DNA of 64,000 bases from Capsulimonas corticalis (GTDB taxonomy: Bacteria; Armatimonadota; Armatimonadia; Armatimonadales; Capsulimonadaceae). This document shows, piece after piece, positions 13,097 to 25,538 of this stretch. The notes under the pieces are model-generated. The model saw nothing but the letters and a program-made list of their open reading frames with translations, was not told the origin of the DNA and made no database searches. Positions within the stretch are counted from its first letter, which is position 1. Every line of letters starts with the position of its first letter. The DNA is taken from positions 4,526,001 to 4,590,000 of the forward strand of contig NZ_AP025739.1 of assembly GCF_003574315.2 (NCBI RefSeq), read 5' to 3'. A program made the position numbers and the translations under genes.

Positions 13097-13768
13097 ATGG
13101 ACCTCAACCCGGCTGGGTGGCTGCGCTTTCTGCTGAACGGCGGCCCGATGATGTGGCCGTTGTTCGCCTGCGCGCTCGTTTCTCTCGGCGTGATCATCGA
13201 ACGATGGTCCGTCATCGGCCGCGCGGCCACGGATACGGAAGACCTGCTGGAGCAAGTGCGCCGCCTGCTTTCCGAGGGACGCGTGCCGGACGCCCTGGCG
13301 CTTGCGGAGGGAACGCGCGGTCCGGTGGCGTCTCTGGTGGCGAGCGGCATCCGCAACCAGGATCTGGACGCGGACGCCATCGAGCGGGCGATGGAGGAGC
13401 TGGCGCTGCGGGAAACGCCGGTGCTGTATAAGCGCCTGGGCATCCTCGACACGGTCATCACGATCGCGCCGCTGCTGGGATTGCTGGGCACCGTGACGGG
13501 CATGATCAAGGCGTTTAACGTCGTGGGCAACGTCGGCCTGAACCAGCCGATGGGCATCACCGGCGGCGTCGCCGAGGCCCTGATCGCCACGGCGACCGGG
13601 CTCGCCATCGCCATCGTCACCCTGATCGCCTATAACTATCTGACGGAAAAGGTCAAAGAGATCATCTCCGAGATGGAGACACGAGCCACGCAGCTCCTGA
13701 ACATTCTGGCCGGTCTGCGCGCGAAGGCGAACCGTGGAGAAGTTTCGGCAGCCGGGGGCGCGGTCTAA
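13097..13768 (+). CDS. exbB: MotA/TolQ/ExbB proton channel family protein, first copy
   Basis: 223 residues. First helix GPMMWPLFACALVSLGVIIERW near residue 16, cytoplasmic loop about 40-105, then the two core helices TVITIAPLLGLLGTVTGMI (near 120) and ALIATATGLAIAIVTLIAYN. Known members form a proton-conducting pentamer around an ExbD dimer in the inner membrane and energise a TonB- or TolA-like partner. It is the first gene of a tight operon with a second ExbB, two ExbD and a giant tether protein. The next start is 3 bases after its stop. Confidence 0.93.
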   Translation: MDLNPAGWLRFLLNGGPMMWPLFACALVSLGVIIERWSVIGRAATDTEDLLEQVRRLLSEGRVPDALALAEGTRGPVASLVASGIRNQDLDADAIERAMEELALRETPVLYKRLGILDTVITIAPLLGLLGTVTGMIKAFNVVGNVGLNQPMGITGGVAEALIATATGLAIAIVTLIAYNYLTEKVKEIISEMETRATQLLNILAGLRAKANRGEVSAAGGAV

Positions 13769-13771
13769 ACC

Positions 13772-14389
13772 ATGACCCAGGACGTTCATTTTCTTCTCGG
13801 CGGCGGCGTCATGATGTGGCCGCTGTTTCTTTGCGGGATCATCTCGGTCGCTGTGATGATCGACCGGCTGCTCGCCATCGGCGCGACGGTGGGCGACAAC
13901 CGGCGCCTGGTCGCGGACGTGGAAAAGCTCGTCCATTCCGGCCGGTACGCGGAGGCGCTTGCGGAGTGCGAGGCGCATCCGGGTCGTGTCGCCGCAATGC
14001 TGGCGAGCGGCCTGCGCGCCGAGGGGCTGGACCGCCTCGCCATCGAGCGCCATATGGAAGAGTTTGCCCTGCGCCAGATGCCGGTGATGATGGAGCGCCT
14101 GAGCGTGCTCGATACGATTGTCACACTGGCGCCATTGCTGGGCCTGCTCGGCACCATCACCGGTATGATCAAGGCGTTCCATATCGTCGGCTCCGCCGCG
14201 ACGAGCTCGCCTGGCGTGATTACCGGCGGCATCGCCGAAGCGCTCATCGCCACATCGGCGGGGCTGGCGATTGCGATTGTGACGCTGCCGGCGTATAACT
14301 TCCTAACCGAACGGGTCAAGGAGAACATTTCCGAGATGGAATGGCGCGCCACCCAGCTGATGAACACGCTGGCCGGGAGGCGCGCATGA
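13772..14389 (+). CDS. exbB: MotA/TolQ/ExbB proton channel family protein, second copy
   Basis: 205 residues with the same three-helix plan as the gene before it (GVMMWPLFLCGIISVAVMIDR, IVTLAPLLGLLGTITGMIKAF, ALIATSAGLAIAIVTLPAYN). The two copies are clearly paralogous but diverged along their whole length, so this is not a recent duplication. Two different ExbB proteins plus two different ExbD proteins could build one hetero-oligomeric motor or two separate ones. The stop overlaps the next start as ATGA (14386-14389). Confidence 0.93.
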   Translation: MTQDVHFLLGGGVMMWPLFLCGIISVAVMIDRLLAIGATVGDNRRLVADVEKLVHSGRYAEALAECEAHPGRVAAMLASGLRAEGLDRLAIERHMEEFALRQMPVMMERLSVLDTIVTLAPLLGLLGTITGMIKAFHIVGSAATSSPGVITGGIAEALIATSAGLAIAIVTLPAYNFLTERVKENISEMEWRATQLMNTLAGRRA

Positions 14390-14811
14390 AACTGCCTCGC
14401 AAGGAGATGAAACGGGCGCGGATCGAGATCATTCCGATGATCGACACGATCTTTTTTTTGCTGGTCTTTTTCATGATCGCCAGCCTCGCCATGATCCCGA
14501 TGTCGGCGCACCATGTCGATCTGCCTTCCAGCGCCACGGCGTCGCTGAAGCCGCTGGAAAAGGCGGTGGTGACGATCTCGAAGGAAGGCGATTACTACAT
14601 CGACCAGAAAAAACTGGCCGGCGTGGGAGAGATCAAACCGGTGGTCGCGTCGCGGCTGGCGCAAAATCCCAGCCTCGTGGTGGTGATCAACTGCGATAAG
14701 TCGCAGCAGATCGCCAAATTTACCCAGGCCTTCGATCTGATCAAGCAGGCGAATGCGCAGAACGTGATGGTGGCGACCGATCCGCAGTCGCCTCTGGAGG
14801 CCGCTCATTGA
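14386..14811 (+). CDS. exbD: ExbD/TolR family protein, first copy
   Basis: 141 residues from ATG 14386, which overlaps the preceding TGA; an earlier in-frame ATG at 14341 would lie deep inside exbB. One N-terminal transmembrane helix (MIDTIFFLLVFFMIASLAM) carries the conserved proton-carrying Asp (D20). A periplasmic domain of about 95 residues follows (VVTISKEGDYYIDQKKL, VVINCDKSQQIAKFTQAFDLI). It works with ExbB as the stator/rotor core. The end overlaps the next gene by 4 bases. Confidence 0.93.
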   Translation: MKLPRKEMKRARIEIIPMIDTIFFLLVFFMIASLAMIPMSAHHVDLPSSATASLKPLEKAVVTISKEGDYYIDQKKLAGVGEIKPVVASRLAQNPSLVVVINCDKSQQIAKFTQAFDLIKQANAQNVMVATDPQSPLEAAH

Positions 14812-15308
14812 AAATTCCGCGCCCTCCGATGCGCAAGGCTCGGATTGAGATCATCCCGATGATCGACACGATCTTCTTTCTGCTGGTCTTCTTTATGATC
14901 GCCAGTCTTAACATGACGCGAATGCGCGCCATCGCCGTGGCGCTCCCCAAGAATAGCCCGCCCTCGGCGGCGGCTTCCGGCGGCGCGGGCGGGGCTGATT
15001 TGATCCTGACGCTGACTGAGCGCGGCGACTACTACCTGGGCAAGCAGCGCCTTGGTTCGGATCCACAGGCGCTCCAGGCGGCGTTGACGGATCATCTGCG
15101 AAACGCCGCGCCGCGCGATGTCGTTCTGAACCTCGGCAAGCAGCAGACGACCCAGTCGCTGGTCGGGGTGATGGACGTCCTGAACCGCGCCCGCACGGCG
15201 ACCGGCAAGGATGTTCCCGTGCTGATCGCGACGGAGCCGGTCGATCAGGAAGGACACGCGCTGCCGGGCGGCGCCCCGGCCTCCGACACTCAAGCAGGAG
15301 GCTTGTAA
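14808..15308 (+). CDS. exbD: ExbD/TolR family protein, second copy
   Basis: 166 residues. It starts at TTG 14808, 8 bases after GGAGG, and this TTG overlaps the preceding TGA. The N-terminus (ARIEIIPMIDTIFFLLVFFMI) is nearly identical to the first ExbD, with Asp also at residue 20, but the periplasmic domain is different and longer and contains a Ser/Ala/Gly linker (about 48-60) plus a 20-residue C-terminal tail. Conservation of the membrane part with divergence of the periplasmic part suggests that both contact the same ExbB type but different periplasmic partners. Confidence 0.92.
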   Translation: MKIPRPPMRKARIEIIPMIDTIFFLLVFFMIASLNMTRMRAIAVALPKNSPPSAAASGGAGGADLILTLTERGDYYLGKQRLGSDPQALQAALTDHLRNAAPRDVVLNLGKQQTTQSLVGVMDVLNRARTATGKDVPVLIATEPVDQEGHALPGGAPASDTQAGGL

Positions 15309-15321
15309 GGAAAGTACTCTC

Positions 15322-18300
15322 ATGTCCTCGCGCAAAAAACGCCTCGCGATCGCTTATTCCTCCTCGATCCTGCTGAACGGCGCGTTCTGGCTGTTCTACA
15401 GCCATGAGCTTCGTTCCAGCAACGCGCATCCGGCCGTCAGCAATGAGGCGATCGAGCGGATGAAACCGATGACTGTCGGCCTGTTCAAGCCGCTGCCGCC
15501 GCTGCCCGCGCCGCATCCGGCGGCGCCGAAACCAGGCGCCGGCCAGCGGCCTTCGGGCGCGGCGGGTGAAACGCAGGCGCTTCGTCAGGCGGAAGCGAAG
15601 CAGGACGCGGCGGCTCGTGTTCTCGCGCGGAAGCAGTCGGAAGCCGCCGCCGCTCAGTCGCGGGCCGCTGGTTCGGCGGGGCAGGCCAAGGCGAGCGAGC
15701 GCGCCGCCTTGGAGGCGGCCGCTAACGTCCAATCCGCGCATCAGTTTGTGCAGCAAGCGGAGGCGAAGCTCAGCGCATCGCGGGGCGCTCTGGCCGACGC
15801 CCGTGCGGCGCTGGACCAGGCGAAGCCCGACGAGCGGGCCGCACAGGCGGCGGCGGCGCAAGCGGCGGCCAAACAAGCGGCGCAGGACGCCGCACAGGCT
15901 CAGTCCGCGAATGAAGTGCTGGCGTACGCGCAGGCTTCCGCCGACGCCGCAGTCAAGATGGCGGCCTCCCGTGCGGCCGCCGCTCAGGCGGCTCAAACCA
16001 AAGCGGCGGCCCTGGAAGCGGCGGCGGTCGAGGCGCGGAGCCGTCTCAGCGCCCAGTCGGCCGCCGTACAGCAGCTTCGCCAGCAAAGCGCCGCCCTGTT
16101 AGCCACTCTTCCAGCTTCAGACTCCGACTCGGAGACCAACTCCGAGAATGACGAATCCGCAGCCCCGGACCGAGCCTCCACAGACCCTCAGAAAAAAGAA
16201 AAGCCGCAGTCCGATATCGTCCTCCAGCGCATCCAGATGTGGAGCCCCAAAGCGGGGCAGAAGTTCAACCTGGCGACGAACTTGAACATCACGTTCCCCA
16301 AGGATATGCAGGTCACGCCCGGGCCGCCGCTGACGGAAGACCAGCTGGCGCAGATCCAGGAGCTTATGCGCCATCAGCATTTGCATCAGGTCAAGATGGA
16401 CCGCAAACAAGTGCGGAAACTGGCCGACATGCGCCGCAAAACCACAAGCAAGCCCAAGCCGACGGGCAAGCCGGGAAGCGATGACGAGCGGCGCCGTATG
16501 GCGAAGCGCCCGGCGCCGCGTCCGCCGATCCATAAAACGGTCAAGCCGCAAGGCGAGCAAGCCTCTAATCTTCCACGTCCGCGCTCGCCATTTGTCGTCC
16601 GGACATGGGATACGGACATGTACAACCGCTGGGCGCCGCGTCCGGGTGAAGATAAGAATATCTCCGACACGCAAGCGCCTGCCTCGCAGACGCCAGCGCC
16701 GCAAACGCCCGGCAGTCCGCAGGACGGCGCCGGGACTTCGGCTGCCACAGCGCCCACTCAGATGGCGGCAAACGCGCCCGGCGCTCTCAGCGGCAACGCC
16801 GCAGGAGCGCAAGGGGCCGGAACCGGGCAAGACAACGGCTCCGACGCCGGTCAGGCTGGCGGTGCGTCGGGTGGTCAGGCTGGCGGTGCGTCGGGTGGTC
16901 AGGCTGGCGGTGCGTCGGGTGGTCAGGCTGGCGGTGCGTCGGGTGGTCAGGCTGGCGGTGCGTCGGGTGGTCAGGCTGGCGGTGCGTCGGGTGGTCAGGC
17001 TGGCGGTGCGTCGGGTGGTCAGGCTGGCGGTGCGTCGGGTGGTCAGGCTGGCGGTGCGTCGGGTGGTCAGGCTGGCGGTGCGTCGGGTGGTCAGGCTGGC
17101 GGTGCGTCGGGTGGTCAGGCTGGCGGTGCGTCGGGTGGTCAGGCTGGCGGTGCGTCGGGTGGTCAGGCTGGCGGTGCGTCGGGTGGTCAGGCTGGCGGTG
17201 CGTCGGGTGGTCAGGCTGGCGGTGCGTCGGGTGGTCAGGGGCAAGAAAATGGAGCCGGCAAGGGAACCGATGCCGGCCCTCAAGGCGCAGGCCAAGGCGC
17301 AGGCCAAGGCGCAGGCCAAGGCGCAGGCCAAGGCGCAGGCCAAGGCGCAGGCCAAGGCGCAGGCCAAGGCGCAGGCCAAGGCGCAGGCCAAGGCGCAGGC
17401 CAAGGCGCAGGCCAAGGCGCAGGCCAAGGCGCAGGCCAAGGCGCAGGCCAAGGCGCAGGCCAAGGCGCAGGCCAAGGCGCAGGCCAAGGCGCAGGCCAAG
17501 GCGCAGGCCAAGGCGCAGGCCAAGGCGCAGGCCAAGGCGCAGGCCAAGGCGCAGGCCAAGGCGCAGGCCAAGGCGCAGGCCAAGGCGCAGGCCAAGGCGC
17601 AGGCCAAGGCGCAGGCCAAGGCGCAGGCCAAGGCGCAGGCCAAGGCGCAGGCCAAGGCGCAGGCCAAGGCGCAGGCCAAGGCGCAGGCCAAGGCGCAGGC
17701 CAAGGCGCAGGCCAAGGCGCAGGCCAAGGCGCAGGCCAAGGCAGTGGCGGCGGTAACGGAGCGGGCGCGGCCAGCGGAACCGGGACGGGAGCTGGAGAGG
17801 GCGGCGCGGAGGGCAATGGCGGAGGAGGCGAGGGGAGCGGGCAGGGCGGCGGTCAGGGCGGCGCCTTTGAGGCGCTCCAGTCCGAAGGCGGCGATGGGAT
17901 TGGTGAAGGCGGGGGCAGCGGCGGCGGTGACAATGGGATGGGGGATCAAGGGCGAGACGACGGCGTGGAGCATGGCGACAGCCAGGTGGCGGAGCAGGCC
18001 GACTTGCCGCCGGACGCTCCGATCGTCGGTCATACCGTTCCCGGCGCGCTGGTGCTTCCTCCCGCGCCCCCCGTGGGAGTCAGCAAAGGCCAAGACCCCA
18101 CTCCGCGTAAAGTCAAAAGCACGGTCGTGAGCCCGCCGGGGGGCAAAACCGCGCGCGCGGTCCGCCGGCCGGAAGAGCGGACCGCGCCGCTCACGCCCGC
18201 CTCACAATCGCCGAAGCCGCAGAAGATGGTCAAGGAGCCCGTGGGCCAGCCCGACAAGACGGGTCTCAAGCCTATCCCTTTGGCGCTGACAATCGGCTCC

Positions 18301-19113
18301 GCCAGCTCGGCGGGGCAGATCCCCATGACCGTCATGGCGCGCCCGCATCTGCCGCAGGGAATACCGGGAGATGTGATCGATCCGCCGCAGCCGCCCGCGA
18401 AGGGCGTTCCCAAGTCGCCTTCGCTGCTGCCGGCGCACAAGGCGGTTCCGCCGGAAAAAACGGCGTCGGCGGCAAAGCCCATTCACCCCGAAAAGACGCA
18501 GCCCGTGAAGAGGGAGACTCCGCGTCCGGCGGTCGTGCATCTGGCCCGGAACAGTCAGGGAATTCGAAACGGCGCCCTTCAGCCTCTGCCGGCGACGCCC
18601 ATGCCCGACAGCAATACGCTTGTCGGCGACGGCTCCGGCCTGAAGGGCGAGTACTATGAGGGGCGCTCCTTTGACACGCTCGCATTCACTCGGGCCGATC
18701 CCAACGTGGCGTATCGCTGGGTGACGACGCCCACGCACTCGCCGGGACCAAAGATTCAGGCGTATACCGACTATACGATCCGCTGGACCGGACGCATCGT
18801 CGCGCGACAATCCGAGACGTATACGTTCTATGCGGCCGCGGACGATGGAGTGCGCATCTGGATCAATCACAAACTGGTGATCGACGAGTGGTCGGCCAAC
18901 AGTTTGACGCAGTTCTCCAATAAGTTTACATTCCGGGCCGGCGAGCAATATCTGTTCAAGTGCGAATATCTGGAAGTGGACGGCGGCGATGCGGCGGTGT
19001 TTCTATACTGGTCCAGCCCGCACACCCCAAAGCAATACGTGCCGGAAGATGCATTCTTCTATCCGCTGCCCGACGATGAGGAAGAGCTGAAACTGGACAA
19101 GGCGTCCTATTGA
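15322..19113 (+). CDS. Giant TonB-like anchored protein with Gly-rich tandem repeats and C-terminal PA14 domain
   Basis: 1263 residues. The parts in order are: a short basic N-terminus and one transmembrane segment (8-26) in which S15-ILL-N19-GA aligns with the TonB SxxxH-GA signature, His replaced by Asn; a Pro-rich stretch ([14 protein letters not shown]); an Ala/Gln/Lys-rich coiled coil of about 190 residues; a basic linker; 16 identical octapeptides GQAGGASG (510-637); 38 identical QGAG tetrapeptides (654-805); a Gly-rich then Pro-rich region; and a PA14 domain from about 1105 ([33 protein letters not shown]). There is no TonB C-terminal domain. PA14 domains often bind glycans. It follows two exbB and two exbD genes, so it is probably the tether moved by that motor; this is inference. 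Confidence 0.85.
16849..17232 (+). repeat. 16 perfect tandem copies of a 24-bp repeat
   Basis: Sixteen identical copies of a 24-base unit beginning GGTCAGGCTGGC and encoding GQAGGASG, followed by 6 bases of a seventeenth. No base differs between copies, so the array was expanded or homogenised recently and copy number probably varies between strains. Confidence 0.98.
17281..17736 (+). repeat. 38 perfect tandem copies of a 12-bp repeat
   Basis: Thirty-eight identical copies of CAAGGCGCAGGC, encoding QGAG, ending in one degenerate copy at 17737-17748. The unit is a multiple of three, so changes in copy number keep the frame. The assembled copy number may not be exact. Confidence 0.98.
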
Positions 19114-19161
19114 AAGGCGCGACGCGAACCGAAGCCCGGACATGGAGCGAGTAAGACGAAA

Positions 19162-20574
19162 ATGATCCTATACGCCAATCGCCTCTTTCTTTCAGCGGCT
19201 TTGATCCTCAGTTGTGCTATTGGAGCGCCCGCCGCGCCGGACGACACGACCGCCGCCGCGCCGGCGGCTTCCGGCGCAGGTCCGCAAACGCCAACGGAAG
19301 ATCCGCGATTTTTGCCCGCTTCCGACGCCATCAAGGCCGGCGATCTCGACAAACTCCGAGCGATCGTCGCCAAGTCCGGTCCGGCGATTACCGGAGCGGA
19401 TGGGACGACCTTGCTGATGCGCGCGGCGTCGGCGGGCGATGCGCGTATCGTCAAGTTTCTTCTGGACCAGGGCGTCGATGTGGACGCTCAGGCCGCCGAC
19501 GGCGACTGCGCTCTCCTGGAGGCCGCGCACAAGGGGCTGCTCCCAATCATGAAACTGCTCGTGGAGAAGGAAGCGGAGGTCAACGTTTCGGATAACGCCG
19601 GCGTCACCACACTGATGGAGGCGGCGCATTCGAACCATATGGACGCCGTTCAGTACTTGATCGATCAGAGCGCTATCGTCGACGCCGTGGACAATACTGG
19701 TAAAACGGCGCTGATGGTGGCCGCGTTCTCCGCCGGCGCGCCGGTTGTGCAGACGCTTCTGGACGCAAAGGCGGACGTCAGCCGGCGGGACATTCACTTT
19801 CGCAATGCGCTTATGCAGGCGGCTTACGGCGCTCGTCCGGCGAATGTGCGGCTGCTTCTCGACCACGGCGCCGAACTGTCCTCGAAGGACAAGGAGGGGT
19901 TCACCGCGCTGATGGTGGCTGCGGGAGTCGGAGATCCCGCCACGATCGTCACGCTGCTCGACAAAGGCGCCGATATCAACGCTCGCACGAAAAGCGGTTT
20001 CACGCCGCTGATGCAGTCCGCGGCCGCCAATCGAATCCCAGCTTTGAAGCTCCTTCTGGAGCGCGGGGCCGACGTCCAGGCGCGCACGGAGGGCGGATCG
20101 ACGGCAATCATCATCGCCGCTTACGGCGGACACGACGAGGTGGTGCGGGAGTTGGAAGCGCACGGCGCAAAGGTCAGCGACTCCGATACCGAAGGGCATA
20201 CGCCCCTCTTCGGCGCGGCGCTCTCCAAGAACCTGCCGATGGTCAAACGGTTTATCGCCAAGGGCGCCAAAGTCAACATCGCAACCGCAAAAGGGTTTAC
20301 GCCGCTCATGCAGGCCGCGTTCTCCGGCGATCCGGAAATCATCCGCGTGATGCTGGCCGCCGGCGCCAATGTCAACGACAAGACCGACGAAGGCTATACG
20401 CCGCTGATGCAGGCGGTCCCTGGCGGCAACCTCGACTGCCTGAAACTGCTGCTCAAGCACGGCGCCGACCTGCAGGCGAAGGATACCGAGGGGCGAACCG
20501 CTCTGACATGGGCGGAGCGGAAAAAGAAAACAGACGTCGCCGTGCTGCTCAAGTCGGCGGGCGCCCGCGCCTGA
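19162..20574 (+). CDS. Secreted ankyrin-repeat protein
   Basis: 470 residues. A signal peptide (LFLSAALILSCAIGAPAA) and a Thr/Ala/Pro-rich linker are followed by at least twelve ankyrin repeats of 33 residues from about residue 75 to the end, in the form DG-TLLMRAA-GD-IVKFLLDQGVDVDA. No other domain is visible, so it is a protein-binding scaffold in the periplasm or outside. It lies 48 bp after the giant PA14 protein on the same strand and no terminator is seen between them, so it is probably the last gene of the ExbB/ExbD operon. Its partner is unknown; the repeat or coiled-coil part of the preceding protein is a candidate. Confidence 0.9.
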   Translation: MILYANRLFLSAALILSCAIGAPAAPDDTTAAAPAASGAGPQTPTEDPRFLPASDAIKAGDLDKLRAIVAKSGPAITGADGTTLLMRAASAGDARIVKFLLDQGVDVDAQAADGDCALLEAAHKGLLPIMKLLVEKEAEVNVSDNAGVTTLMEAAHSNHMDAVQYLIDQSAIVDAVDNTGKTALMVAAFSAGAPVVQTLLDAKADVSRRDIHFRNALMQAAYGARPANVRLLLDHGAELSSKDKEGFTALMVAAGVGDPATIVTLLDKGADINARTKSGFTPLMQSAAANRIPALKLLLERGADVQARTEGGSTAIIIAAYGGHDEVVRELEAHGAKVSDSDTEGHTPLFGAALSKNLPMVKRFIAKGAKVNIATAKGFTPLMQAAFSGDPEIIRVMLAAGANVNDKTDEGYTPLMQAVPGGNLDCLKLLLKHGADLQAKDTEGRTALTWAERKKKTDVAVLLKSAGARA

Positions 20575-20611
20575 CGCAGTCGCCGCTTGGCGGCGTAAGA
20601 TACTCATGAAA

Positions 20612-20642
20612 ACGGCCCGGGCGACAAAGTCGCCCGGGCCGT
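20612..20642. terminator. Terminator between the ankyrin gene and pdxS
   Basis: A perfect 14-bp GC-rich stem (20612-20625 with 20629-20642) with loop AAA. On the minus strand it is followed by TTTTC right after pdxS. On the plus strand TATTTTC follows a few bases on, so it may serve both converging genes. Confidence 0.8.
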
Positions 20643-20653
20643 TCCGTATTTTC

Positions 20654-22370: not shown

Positions 22371-25300
22371 TTAGCCCTTGGCGGCTGCGGCGGCCGTCAC
22401 ATTCAGTGTCGCCGTTTTGGAGACGCTGTTGAGGGTCGCGGAGATCGTCGCTAACGCCGGCGTCATGCCCGTCTTTGTCGTGATCGAGAAGTTTGCCGTC
22501 GTGTAGCCCGCCGGAACGGTCACACTGCTGAAGGCCTTAACGCCGGAGACGTTGCTGGTCAGCGTGATGAGCGTATCCGCCGTCGGCGCATAGGAGAGCT
22601 GCACGGTACCCGTCGCGGAGGCTCCCGCCACCACGGAGGTCGGCGCAATCGTCAGGCTGGTCAGCACCACGGGGAGCGTGACATTGAGCGTCGCCGTCTT
22701 GCTGGTGTCCCGCAGGGTCGCCGTGATTTTCGCGCCGATCGCTGCGTAGCCAGTGTGGCTCACCACGGGAATGGATGCGGTTGTCTCGCCTTCCAGAACC
22801 TTAATGGCGCTCAAGACCGTGACGGAGCTCGTATCGCTGGCAAGGTTGACGATTACGCCGCCCGGTGTTGCCGGAGCGGTGAGCGTCACGGTGGCCGTGG
22901 CGCGCGTTCCCGAGATGATCGACGTCTTATCGAGCGCGATGCTGAGCAGGGCCGGCGCCGGAGTAATCGTCAGATTAGCGCCAACGGTCACTCCATTCGA
23001 CGCCGCCGTAATCGTGACGACCTTGGTGCTCGCGACAAACTTCGTGGTGACCGGGAAGGTCGCCGAAGTTGCTCCCGCTGGAACGACAACACCATAGTAT
23101 ACGCCTGCCGAGTTCGTATCGCTGCTTAGCAGTGTGACTAGCGCGCCGCCCGCCGGAGCGACCGTGGAAAGCGTTACAGTCGCTGTAGGGCGTACGCCGG
23201 CGATCACCTGGTTCGGCGCAATCGTCAGGCTGGCGGGAACAGCGGCTACAAGCACAGTCGTGGGAGCGATCAGCACCGTAGAATCCAGGCTGGCGGCAAC
23301 GTTGACGTTTACCGGCGAGTTCACCATGAGTGTCCGAATGGCGAAGCTCGCTGAGGTTGCGCCCGCTGGAATATTTAATTGACCATCCACCAGCAGCACG
23401 CTCCGGTTGGTGCTGGAGAGATGAATCCCGGAGCCGCCGGCGGGCGCCGGAGCTGAGAGCGTGACTGTGCCGTAGGTTTGGACGCCGGCCGCAATTTTGA
23501 CCGGAATGACAAGGCTGACCAGGCTGCCGCCGGCCGAAGCGGGCACTGCGGAAACCTCCGCCGAATTCGGACTGGTGCCGCCTTCGTTGCTTGCGGTGAT
23601 AACGTAGTAATATCGTGTGCCGTTGACTACTCCCGGGCTGTAGTAATACGTCAACGTAGTGGCGCCGTATTGAACGTAAGGACCACCGCTGACATTGGCG
23701 CGCCAGACAGTGTAAGTCTTTGCAGTCGGAACAGCCGTCCACTTCAGAAGGACAACTGCGGATCCCGGTGTTGCGCTTACGCCGGTCGGAGCGTTGGGCG
23801 CGGGGATCAGGGGCGGGGCGAGCGCGGCGAACAGGGTATTGCCAATAAACGATCCAAGGCCGGTCGCGTTGTCGTATCCCGTGGTTGCGGGATAGAACAG
23901 GTTGGTCGAGCCGTCGTTGATGTCGTGGAAAATCGTCGAGTAGCTGTTCGTCAGCGCGATCGGGTAGAGCACCTTATTGGCGAAACCCAGTGTGGTTCGG
24001 CCATCGGCGACACGCTTCTGATTTACCAGGGCGGCGTAAGCCGACCAAAGCGGGGCCGCGCAGCTTGTGCCGCCAAAGACCGTCCATTGACCCTGGAAAT
24101 AGATCGAGTATCCAGTGTTAGGGTCGGAGTCCAGCGAGACATCCGGGACGTTACGCGCGGTGCTGGAGATTCCAAAGCCCGTTTGATAGGACTGCTTGGG
24201 CCAGAGTGCGCTGACGCCGCCGCCGCCGCCCGCGCCGAATTGGCTGCGGCGTTTGTCGCTGGGATCGCCCCACGCGGATTCGGCGCCATAGTCGGTTCCG
24301 TTCAGCGCGAGCGTCGTGCCGCCGACGCCAATAACCTCGGGCTGGGACGCCGGGTCGCTGACGCTGAGGTCAGCCCCATCGTTATATGCGCCGGAGTCTC
24401 CAGATGCGGCGAAGAACGACTGTCCCTGGGTCGCCATCTGCTGAAATATGGCGCGCTCCTGGTTGAAGAACGAGAACGCCGAAACGACCTCGCCGACGCC
24501 CCACGAGCAGCTGATTGAGGGGGCCAAGTTGTCGTCGGCGATTGCGGCGTACGTATTCGCCAAACTGACAACCGTGGGCTGACCGCGATAAACCAAAATC
24601 TTGGCGGCGCCGGGCGCCAGCGCGGCTTGCAGCTCGATATCGAGCGTCACTTCGCCCTGGCCGTCCGGGCTGTTGGGCGGACCGGACGCATTGTCCACGG
24701 AGACATCTTGCAGAGGGACATGAGTGAGGCCGTATGTCGTCTCGTAGGTTGTGACGTCCGCCGGATCGTAGCCGTCAAGCTCAACTAGGGCCAGCTTTTG
24801 CCCCGTACCGGTCTGCGTCACGCTATCCAGGCTGTATGCGTGCTTGATATCGGACGGCGATAGTCCGCCGCCAAGGCCGGTGCCGATTGACGGAGTGACC
24901 GTCATGCGGTCCACGGGGCTGAGAGCGCGATGAAAGGTCTGAATGACGGCGGCGTTGTCCAGTCCAATGACCGTCGCCACCGGAACGCCGCTTGGCGTCG
25001 GGACTTCCGGCTCACGGTCCGCGGAGTAAAAGACGCGGCCGCTGGGCTCTTGATAGTAGCCTAGCTTGACGCCGAATGTGGACGACACCACGGAAGCCGG
25101 GGCGGAGACATCCAGCAACAGGCGGTTCGCATGGCGTCCCGTTACCTGGAAGCCACGCGCCTGATAGTAGGCCGCCAGAGCGTCGTACTGCTCTTGTGTC
25201 GGAGAAAATCGCTGCGCAAATTCGGCCGGCTTGAGATATTTTCCGTAAAGCGGATCTTTGGGATCGTACAGCCGATTGATCAGGTCATCCAGACCCTGCT

Positions 25301-25538
25301 GATCGTGTACGGGCAATCCCAGAGCGAGATTGACGGTTTGCGTGCTGCTGACCGCGCCGACAGCGTGGGAGTACGCCAAAGATCTGGGCAGCACCGACGA
25401 CGGGAGCGGGGCCGCATTACTCATTTGCGCCGTCGCGAGCAAAGCGGGGAAAAGCAAGAGCGATAAGGGGCTCCGGCAGGAGCCGGCGCGGCGCCGGCCA
25501 GTACTGCGCGCACTTCGCGCAGAAAAGAGGGCGAACAT
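22371..25538 (-). CDS. S53-family (sedolisin/kumamolisin-like) protease with FN3 and four Ig-like repeats
   Basis: 1055 residues, secreted. A signal peptide (LSLLLFPALLATAQMSNA) is followed by the S53 activation pro-domain (about 50-205: LYDPKDPLYGKYLKPAEFAQRF) and the catalytic domain with E296 and D300 in GEVTLDIE, D381 in AASGDSG, the nucleophile S492 in GGTSCAAP, and a calcium site near D539 (HDINDG...GYDNATGLG). A fibronectin III domain (about 580-665) follows, then four beta-sandwich repeats of about 95 residues starting with patterns like SLTIAPxxVxAG and ATVTLS. Sedolisins are acid-active serine-carboxyl proteases that mature by removing their pro-domain. The C-terminal tail may hold it on the cell surface or a substrate. 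The gene has a long structured leader. Confidence 0.93.
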   Translation of the reverse strand: MFALFSARSARSTGRRRAGSCRSPLSLLLFPALLATAQMSNAAPLPSSVLPRSLAYSHAVGAVSSTQTVNLALGLPVHDQQGLDDLINRLYDPKDPLYGKYLKPAEFAQRFSPTQEQYDALAAYYQARGFQVTGRHANRLLLDVSAPASVVSSTFGVKLGYYQEPSGRVFYSADREPEVPTPSGVPVATVIGLDNAAVIQTFHRALSPVDRMTVTPSIGTGLGGGLSPSDIKHAYSLDSVTQTGTGQKLALVELDGYDPADVTTYETTYGLTHVPLQDVSVDNASGPPNSPDGQGEVTLDIELQAALAPGAAKILVYRGQPTVVSLANTYAAIADDNLAPSISCSWGVGEVVSAFSFFNQERAIFQQMATQGQSFFAASGDSGAYNDGADLSVSDPASQPEVIGVGGTTLALNGTDYGAESAWGDPSDKRRSQFGAGGGGGVSALWPKQSYQTGFGISSTARNVPDVSLDSDPNTGYSIYFQGQWTVFGGTSCAAPLWSAYAALVNQKRVADGRTTLGFANKVLYPIALTNSYSTIFHDINDGSTNLFYPATTGYDNATGLGSFIGNTLFAALAPPLIPAPNAPTGVSATPGSAVVLLKWTAVPTAKTYTVWRANVSGGPYVQYGATTLTYYYSPGVVNGTRYYYVITASNEGGTSPNSAEVSAVPASAGGSLVSLVIPVKIAAGVQTYGTVTLSAPAPAGGSGIHLSSTNRSVLLVDGQLNIPAGATSASFAIRTLMVNSPVNVNVAASLDSTVLIAPTTVLVAAVPASLTIAPNQVIAGVRPTATVTLSTVAPAGGALVTLLSSDTNSAGVYYGVVVPAGATSATFPVTTKFVASTKVVTITAASNGVTVGANLTITPAPALLSIALDKTSIISGTRATATVTLTAPATPGGVIVNLASDTSSVTVLSAIKVLEGETTASIPVVSHTGYAAIGAKITATLRDTSKTATLNVTLPVVLTSLTIAPTSVVAGASATGTVQLSYAPTADTLITLTSNVSGVKAFSSVTVPAGYTTANFSITTKTGMTPALATISATLNSVSKTATLNVTAAAAAKG

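Follow-up and report, generated by a model that had tools for sequence, protein, structure and literature searches.

What does an ExbB/ExbD motor drive when the gene behind it encodes, in the place of TonB, a protein that ends in a PA14 domain? The question is raised by a six-gene operon of Capsulimonas corticalis (Armatimonadota), found at positions 13097-20574 of the window, the 64,000-nucleotide stretch analysed here (NZ_AP025739.1, positions 4,526,001 to 4,590,000). The operon codes for two ExbB and two ExbD proteins, for a PA14 protein of 1263 residues (the partner protein) and for an ankyrin-repeat protein (Table 1). A sequence-only reading had proposed a proton-driven motor acting on a protein with a TonB-like anchor and a PA14 head. 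This proposal was strengthened by synteny, by the transmembrane (TM) motif, by a D-box and by the lineage of the head, and the probability that the operon specifies a periplasmic force transducer driven by the proton motive force is estimated at roughly 0.7. Coupling of the partner to the motor appears likely from motifs and synteny; docking, force, periplasmic location and a glycan ligand are what we infer.

The gene order, the ATGA and TTGA overlaps, the partner protein and the ankyrin gene described in the sequence-only reading agreed with the coordinates and with Pfam, which bore out all six gene assignments. According to the open reading frames and the sequence, all six genes are on the + strand, neighbouring genes either overlapping or lying no more than 48 bases apart. 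The MotA_ExbB and ExbD domains scored over the curated cut-offs, and the proton path is present in all four motor proteins, as the Asp of the PMID motif in the TM helix of both ExbD proteins and as Thr/Glu motifs (GT.TG and EALIAT; Thr in TM2/TM3) in both ExbB proteins. Asp20 of ExbD2 was invariant (11/11 aligned sequences). The operon is under purifying selection: when compared with a sister species of the same genus (G001), the ratio of nonsynonymous to synonymous substitution rates was 0.05-0.09 for the four motor genes (0.05 for ExbB2), and 0.14 for the ankyrin protein. In the partner protein it was 0.16 over the first 450 residues and 0.09 in the C-terminal part. An artefact of the repeats in the partner gene was ruled out. 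Other frames over the repeats are also open, but it is the coding frame that has the TM helix, the PA14 domain, the conserved blocks and the purifying selection.

The C-terminus of the partner protein matched the PA14 family (PF07691) with 67.7 bits (curated cut-off 24; E 1.3e-18), and no match to TonB_C (PF03544) was found in the protein. PA14 thus replaces the TonB C-terminal domain, as had been claimed. Sequence and model agree on PA14, and a C-terminal vWA fold was not present. The nearest solved structure in a sequence search was the tandem PA14 of RsgI3 (E 1.7e-52). An AlphaFold2 model of the head, made from 30 aligned sequences, matched this structure (6qe7) with a Z score of 23.4 and a root-mean-square deviation of 1.2 over 142 residues at 37% identity; sugar-binding PA14 domains of an adhesin came next (Z 15). 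The DDG motif was invariant in all seven aligned heads. In a tree of 65 PA14 rows, taken from the source genome, from its phylum and from outside it, a single clade of heads was not rejected (approximately unbiased test, p-AU 0.67), and the constrained tree was slightly better than the free one. The two rows of other origin in the head group were copies of head rows. The transducer heads appear to behave as a single lineage, distinct from the remaining PA14 domains.

A profile of the second ExbD was run over 291 genomes of the phylum (top class at least 159 bits, next match 151), and the two-ExbD motor was detected in nine of them. The partner was of the PA14 type in six genomes (ten operons, three of them in the source genome) and of the TonB_C type in two (G017 and G002); in G011 it was lost at a contig end. 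The order exbB-(exbB)-exbD-exbD-PA14 was found in three operons of G001, split over contigs, in G060 and G022, both from a different family of Armatimonadota, and in one genome of the same order but another family (G015). In G018 the partner was cut at the contig end (L057), and the piece that is left shares overlapping sequence with a contig carrying a PA14 head (L090). The sequence-only reading had staked its case on the PA14 gene lying next to exbB/exbD in relatives, and this adjacency was kept. Since the arrangement is retained in relatives, it probably represents an undescribed force-transmitting envelope machine. In the covered flanks of PA14 loci outside the genus, exbB or exbD was found in 0/79 cases among the matches listed; together with the recurring order this ruled out a chance adjacency. 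Beyond the phylum one scan of PA14 relatives was evaluated as far as the matches listed; the distribution given here holds for Armatimonadota, and the system may also occur elsewhere. Another genome of the phylum (G124) contained 11 strong PA14 matches, some of them in frames of more than 2,200 residues.

Most sister operons had one ExbB gene, the constant part being the ExbD pair; the doubled ExbB stressed in the sequence-only reading is therefore not supported as a hallmark of the system. In the ExbD2 tree PA14 and TonB_C operons fell into one clade (support 100/99), indicating that TonB heads and PA14 heads are driven by the same motor lineage. In G002 a gene for a TonB-dependent receptor is located 3' of the TonB_C gene. 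Because TonB_C proteins fill the same slot behind the G017 and G002 motors, and a receptor accompanies one of them, the PA14 protein occupies the position of a force transducer. These results also bear on the possibility that the partner is a passive surface adhesin whose operon is merely shared with exbBD. PA14 domains do occur in adhesins, and only 3 of the 14 PA14 genes of the source genome are beside exbBD. Nevertheless, conservation of the adjacency in several lineages, the TonB_C proteins in the same slot, the TonB-like anchor combined with no recognised export or outer-membrane domain, and a head lineage separate from that of other PA14 domains make such an adhesin very improbable. Adhesion, gliding and polysaccharide uptake, the functions put forward earlier, are guesses, and no sign of the head crossing the outer membrane was seen in the analysed sequences.

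Hydropathy analysis indicated a single N-terminal TM helix in the partner protein, preceded by RKKR and oriented with the N-terminus inside. TonB and TolA share the TM motif Ser-x3-His-x6-Leu-x3-Ser (PMC12215075). TonB also has the D-box, a short strand that follows the TM helix and pairs with the ExbD dimer (PMC10907165). The D-box pattern was matched exactly by the partners of the window, G001, G060 (VPLAVYK) and G022 (VRLGVYK), for which binding is predicted.

In the Ton and Tol systems protons passing through the ExbB ring turn the ExbD dimer, and through its hold on the D-box this dimer moves the transducer. In the operon described here ExbB1 and ExbB2 would form the ring, while ExbD1 and ExbD2 would dimerise, probably with each other, to form the plug. 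The partner protein would dock in TonB fashion, with its N-terminal helix on the ring and its D-box on the periplasmic domains of ExbD. The long low-complexity linker would bridge the periplasm, and the PA14 head, standing in for the TonB C-terminal domain, would grip a target in the wall or the outer membrane. The likeliest target is a polysaccharide or a glycan-bearing protein, on which proton flow would exert a pull or a twist.

Several observations speak against this mechanism. Contact of the partner with ExbB and ExbD is a prediction from motifs and synteny, and the operon encodes no outer-membrane target. The SHLS motif is incomplete in the partner, with Asn for His and with the Leu and the second Ser absent. 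The D-box pattern is short and was produced by 3-9% of the shuffles of the matching PA14 partners, hence each single match is weak; moreover, it was not exact in the two paralogues of the source genome (L038 and L039) and in the G015 protein. The best ExbB tree did not contain a single clade of PA14-linked rows, one clade being not rejected (p-AU 0.16). Finally, PA14 domains can also bind proteins or be structural. As to the TM motif, Asn was found at the place of His also in TonB_C proteins of the same order, including the receptor-linked TonB of L040, and His in a number of more distantly related TonB_C proteins from the phylum. Since Asn occurs in receptor-linked TonB_C proteins, the partner could work like a transducer without strict membership in the SHLS group. 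An ExbB Trp considered as covarying with the Asn/His switch was dropped as uninformative, because this residue was missing in the whole set.

The source genome (7.6 Mb in a single contig) contains seven MotA_ExbB genes. One adjoins an OmpA-domain gene, presumably motB, two share their operons (L040 and L042) with genes for a TonB-dependent receptor and a TonB_C protein, and four are distributed over the three PA14 operons (window, L038 and L039). The L038 and L039 operons have one ExbB, two ExbD and shorter linkers; another PA14 gene was noticed near the L039 operon (15589-18252). The L040 and L042 operons indicate that normal Ton systems exist beside the PA14 operons. If the PA14 operon were itself an ordinary Ton system, its partner would be a TonB with an aberrant C-terminus that still energises TonB-dependent receptors. 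The motor family is indeed the same as in TonB_C operons, and seven plug-domain matches in the genome compare with only two TonB_C proteins. Against this, the partner lacks the TonB C-terminal domain, through which pairing with the TonB box of the receptor takes place, and the scanned neighbours of the PA14 operons included no receptor, in contrast to both TonB_C operons in the genome. An aberrant TonB is thus quite improbable.

What the head might grip can be approached from its relatives and from the rest of the genome. The RsgI3 PA14 dyad binds pectin (PMC4711584). An alpha-galactosidase-like protein with an NPCBM domain adjoins the PA14 operon in G060 and G022 (L048:5932-8397 and L049:13927-17034), a neighbourhood that hints at glycans. 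From the similarity to RsgI3 and the invariant DDG motif a glycan ligand is proposed only tentatively, at somewhat less than even odds. The source organism is a diderm in whose genome no evident Pal was found, the OmpA-family matches being two only, one of them next to MotA; TolB and Pal are not encoded in the locus, and no search of the genome was aimed at TolB. SLH proteins, whose known ligands are wall polysaccharides, are present. Because of these proteins and the lack of an evident Pal, wall polysaccharides would be an obvious periplasmic glycan for the head. A role in uptake may be just as possible.

The same two features of the genome would suit a static anchor, in which the PA14 head clamps ExbBD to a glycan of the wall or the outer membrane while the motor acts on something else. 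MotB anchors the stator in this manner via a wall-binding domain. However, the anchoring domain of MotB is on the subunit inside the pore, and the PA14 head is on a third protein with a TonB-like anchor and a D-box; a static anchor is therefore unlikely.

Residues 28-1104 of the partner protein, which a force transducer would use as its tether, are mostly of low complexity and consist of an Ala/Gln-rich part, a conserved middle, two repeat tracts and a Pro-rich part. A single-sequence model of the middle segment gave mainly a long helix at low confidence (pLDDT, the predicted local distance difference test, 57.5). The coiled coil in this protein, like the signal peptide of the ankyrin protein, was judged from sequence alone. 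The tracts of 128 and 152 residues noted before are indeed encoded by perfect 24-bp and 12-bp DNA arrays. In G001 the composition of the Gly-rich tract is unchanged, but its DNA copies agree with one another at only about 70%, and similar degeneration was seen in G060, suggesting that the perfect arrays are probably young; they may be variable in length. What is conserved is the character of the tether and not the repeat itself, so the giant perfect repeats, recent here and degenerate in the sister species, are not supported as a defining feature of the system. A box with the consensus [IA]GS.S..G.[ILV] was found upstream of the head and was produced by at most 1% of the shuffles per linker. 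Three TonB_C partners have a similar box, which argues that PA14 and TonB_C partners are related proteins with exchanged heads. The box was not placed with confidence in an AlphaFold2 model of residues 971-1263.

The PA14-headed operons are real and conserved, and as a variant of a familiar type of machine they are apparently undescribed. The earlier statement that no such system had been described held for the PA14 head, as no description of a PA14-headed ExbB/ExbD/TonB system was found in a literature search, but not for foreign heads altogether, since a 2025 survey described vWA-headed transducers that are driven by such motors and accompanied by two TolR-like genes; it also predicted further clients of the motor family (PMC12204202). 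The classical clients are TonB and TolA. The operon family represents a clean case, in which motor and anchor were kept and the head was exchanged, with the TonB_C and the PA14 states in one motor clade. If the head binds a glycan, a motor of the ExbBD type would act on polysaccharide, and this would be relevant to the handling of wall and outer membrane in diderms that lack Pal. A bolder view is that the operons specify a third energised trans-envelope machine besides Ton and Tol, composed of ExbBD with a heteromeric ExbD pair and a PA14 lectin head on a tether of variable length, which would direct force onto wall-bound, capsular or imported polysaccharide and perhaps replace Tol-Pal in Armatimonadota lacking Pal. 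This view we consider rather doubtful.

In the window, G001 and G022 the ankyrin gene adjoins the PA14 gene; in G060 it lies one gene further away. It is absent from the paralogous PA14 operons, and there were no other matches to the ankyrin protein at E <1e-60 in the nine genomes with the two-ExbD motor. The ankyrin protein is an accessory of one PA14 sub-lineage, which does not bear out its description as a scaffold of the system. In the window, as in G001, an M48 peptidase gene is located 5' of the operon, and 3' of the terminator-like hairpin a convergent gene of the SOR/SNZ (pdxS) type was identified by Pfam. Further downstream (22371-25538, - strand) the window encodes a large protein that by eye resembles a pro-kumamolisin (S53) peptidase with immunoglobulin-like repeats; a similar protein is encoded near the paralogous operon in L038 (14135-16150).

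Table 1. Features of the PA14 operon (window coordinates)
Feature	Position	Strand	Basis
exbB1 (ExbB1, motor ring subunit)	13097-13768	+	Pfam MotA_ExbB E 4.7e-33; GT.TG and EALIAT motifs kept
exbB2 (ExbB2, second motor ring subunit)	13772-14389	+	Pfam MotA_ExbB E 2.7e-31; key residues as in ExbB1
exbD1 (ExbD1)	14386-14811	+	Pfam ExbD E 3.5e-23; P-M-I-D motif with proton-carrying Asp; ATGA overlap with exbB2
exbD2 (ExbD2, clade-defining second ExbD)	14808-15308	+	Pfam ExbD E 3.4e-17; TTG start; TTGA overlap with exbD1
Gene of putative PA14-headed TonB-like force transducer, 1263 aa	15322-19113	+	TM anchor, D-box-like strand, linker, PA14
N-terminal TM helix, residues 8-27	15343-15402	+	Hydropathy and comparison of 26 partners; S15-x3-N19 where TonB/TolA have Ser-x3-His
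D-box-like strand MTVGLFK, residues 50-56	15469-15489	+	Fits pattern of PMC10907165; 3.5% of shuffles
Ala/Gln-rich linker part, probably helical, residues 81-262	15562-16107	+	Composition
Conserved middle linker segment, residues 286-450	16177-16671	+	Aligned with G001, G060, G022
24-bp perfect tandem repeat, GGQAGGAS x16	16849-17239	+	16.3 copies, 100% match, 16 x 8 = 128 residues
12-bp perfect tandem repeat, GAGQ x38	17281-17742	+	38.5 copies, 100% match, 38 x 4 = 152 residues
Conserved linker box, residues 991-1000, IGSxSxxGxI	18292-18321	+	In every PA14 transducer covering the region; 0-1% of shuffles
PA14 head, residues 1105-1242	18634-19047	+	Pfam E 1.3e-18; confident AlphaFold2 model; Z 23.4 to 6qe7
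Ankyrin-repeat protein, signal-like N-terminus	19162-20574	+	Pfam Ank_2 E 2e-85
Terminator-like hairpin, operon end	20611-20643	+	15-bp stem

Of the known systems, TonB-ExbB-ExbD shares with the operon the motor genes, the single N-terminal TM helix, the D-box-like strand, the low-complexity linker and the position of the partner gene. It differs in that the window has PA14 for the TonB C-terminal domain, two ExbD and two ExbB, a linker that runs to about 1080 residues, a TM motif in which Asn replaces His, and no adjoining receptor. TolQ-TolR-TolA/Pal likewise combines a proton-driven motor with a periplasm-spanning protein having a helical linker part, whereas the window has no TolA domain and neither TolB nor Pal in the locus, and Pal is not evident in the genome. 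The closest solved head, the PA14 dyad of RsgI3 from Clostridium thermocellum, also lies at the C-terminus of a membrane protein, but RsgI3 carries two tandem PA14 domains and is the surface sensor of an anti-sigma factor, with no ExbBD. The vWA transducers of Tichowtungia and other bacteria, encoded beside one tolQ-like and two tolR-like genes, also join a TonB-like anchor and a linker to an unrelated head and have a repeat-protein gene nearby, TPR there and ankyrin in the window (PMC12204202). Unlike these, which keep the His of the SHLS motif, the partner protein of the window belongs to another phylum, has a much longer linker and carries the all-beta, lectin-like PA14 head.

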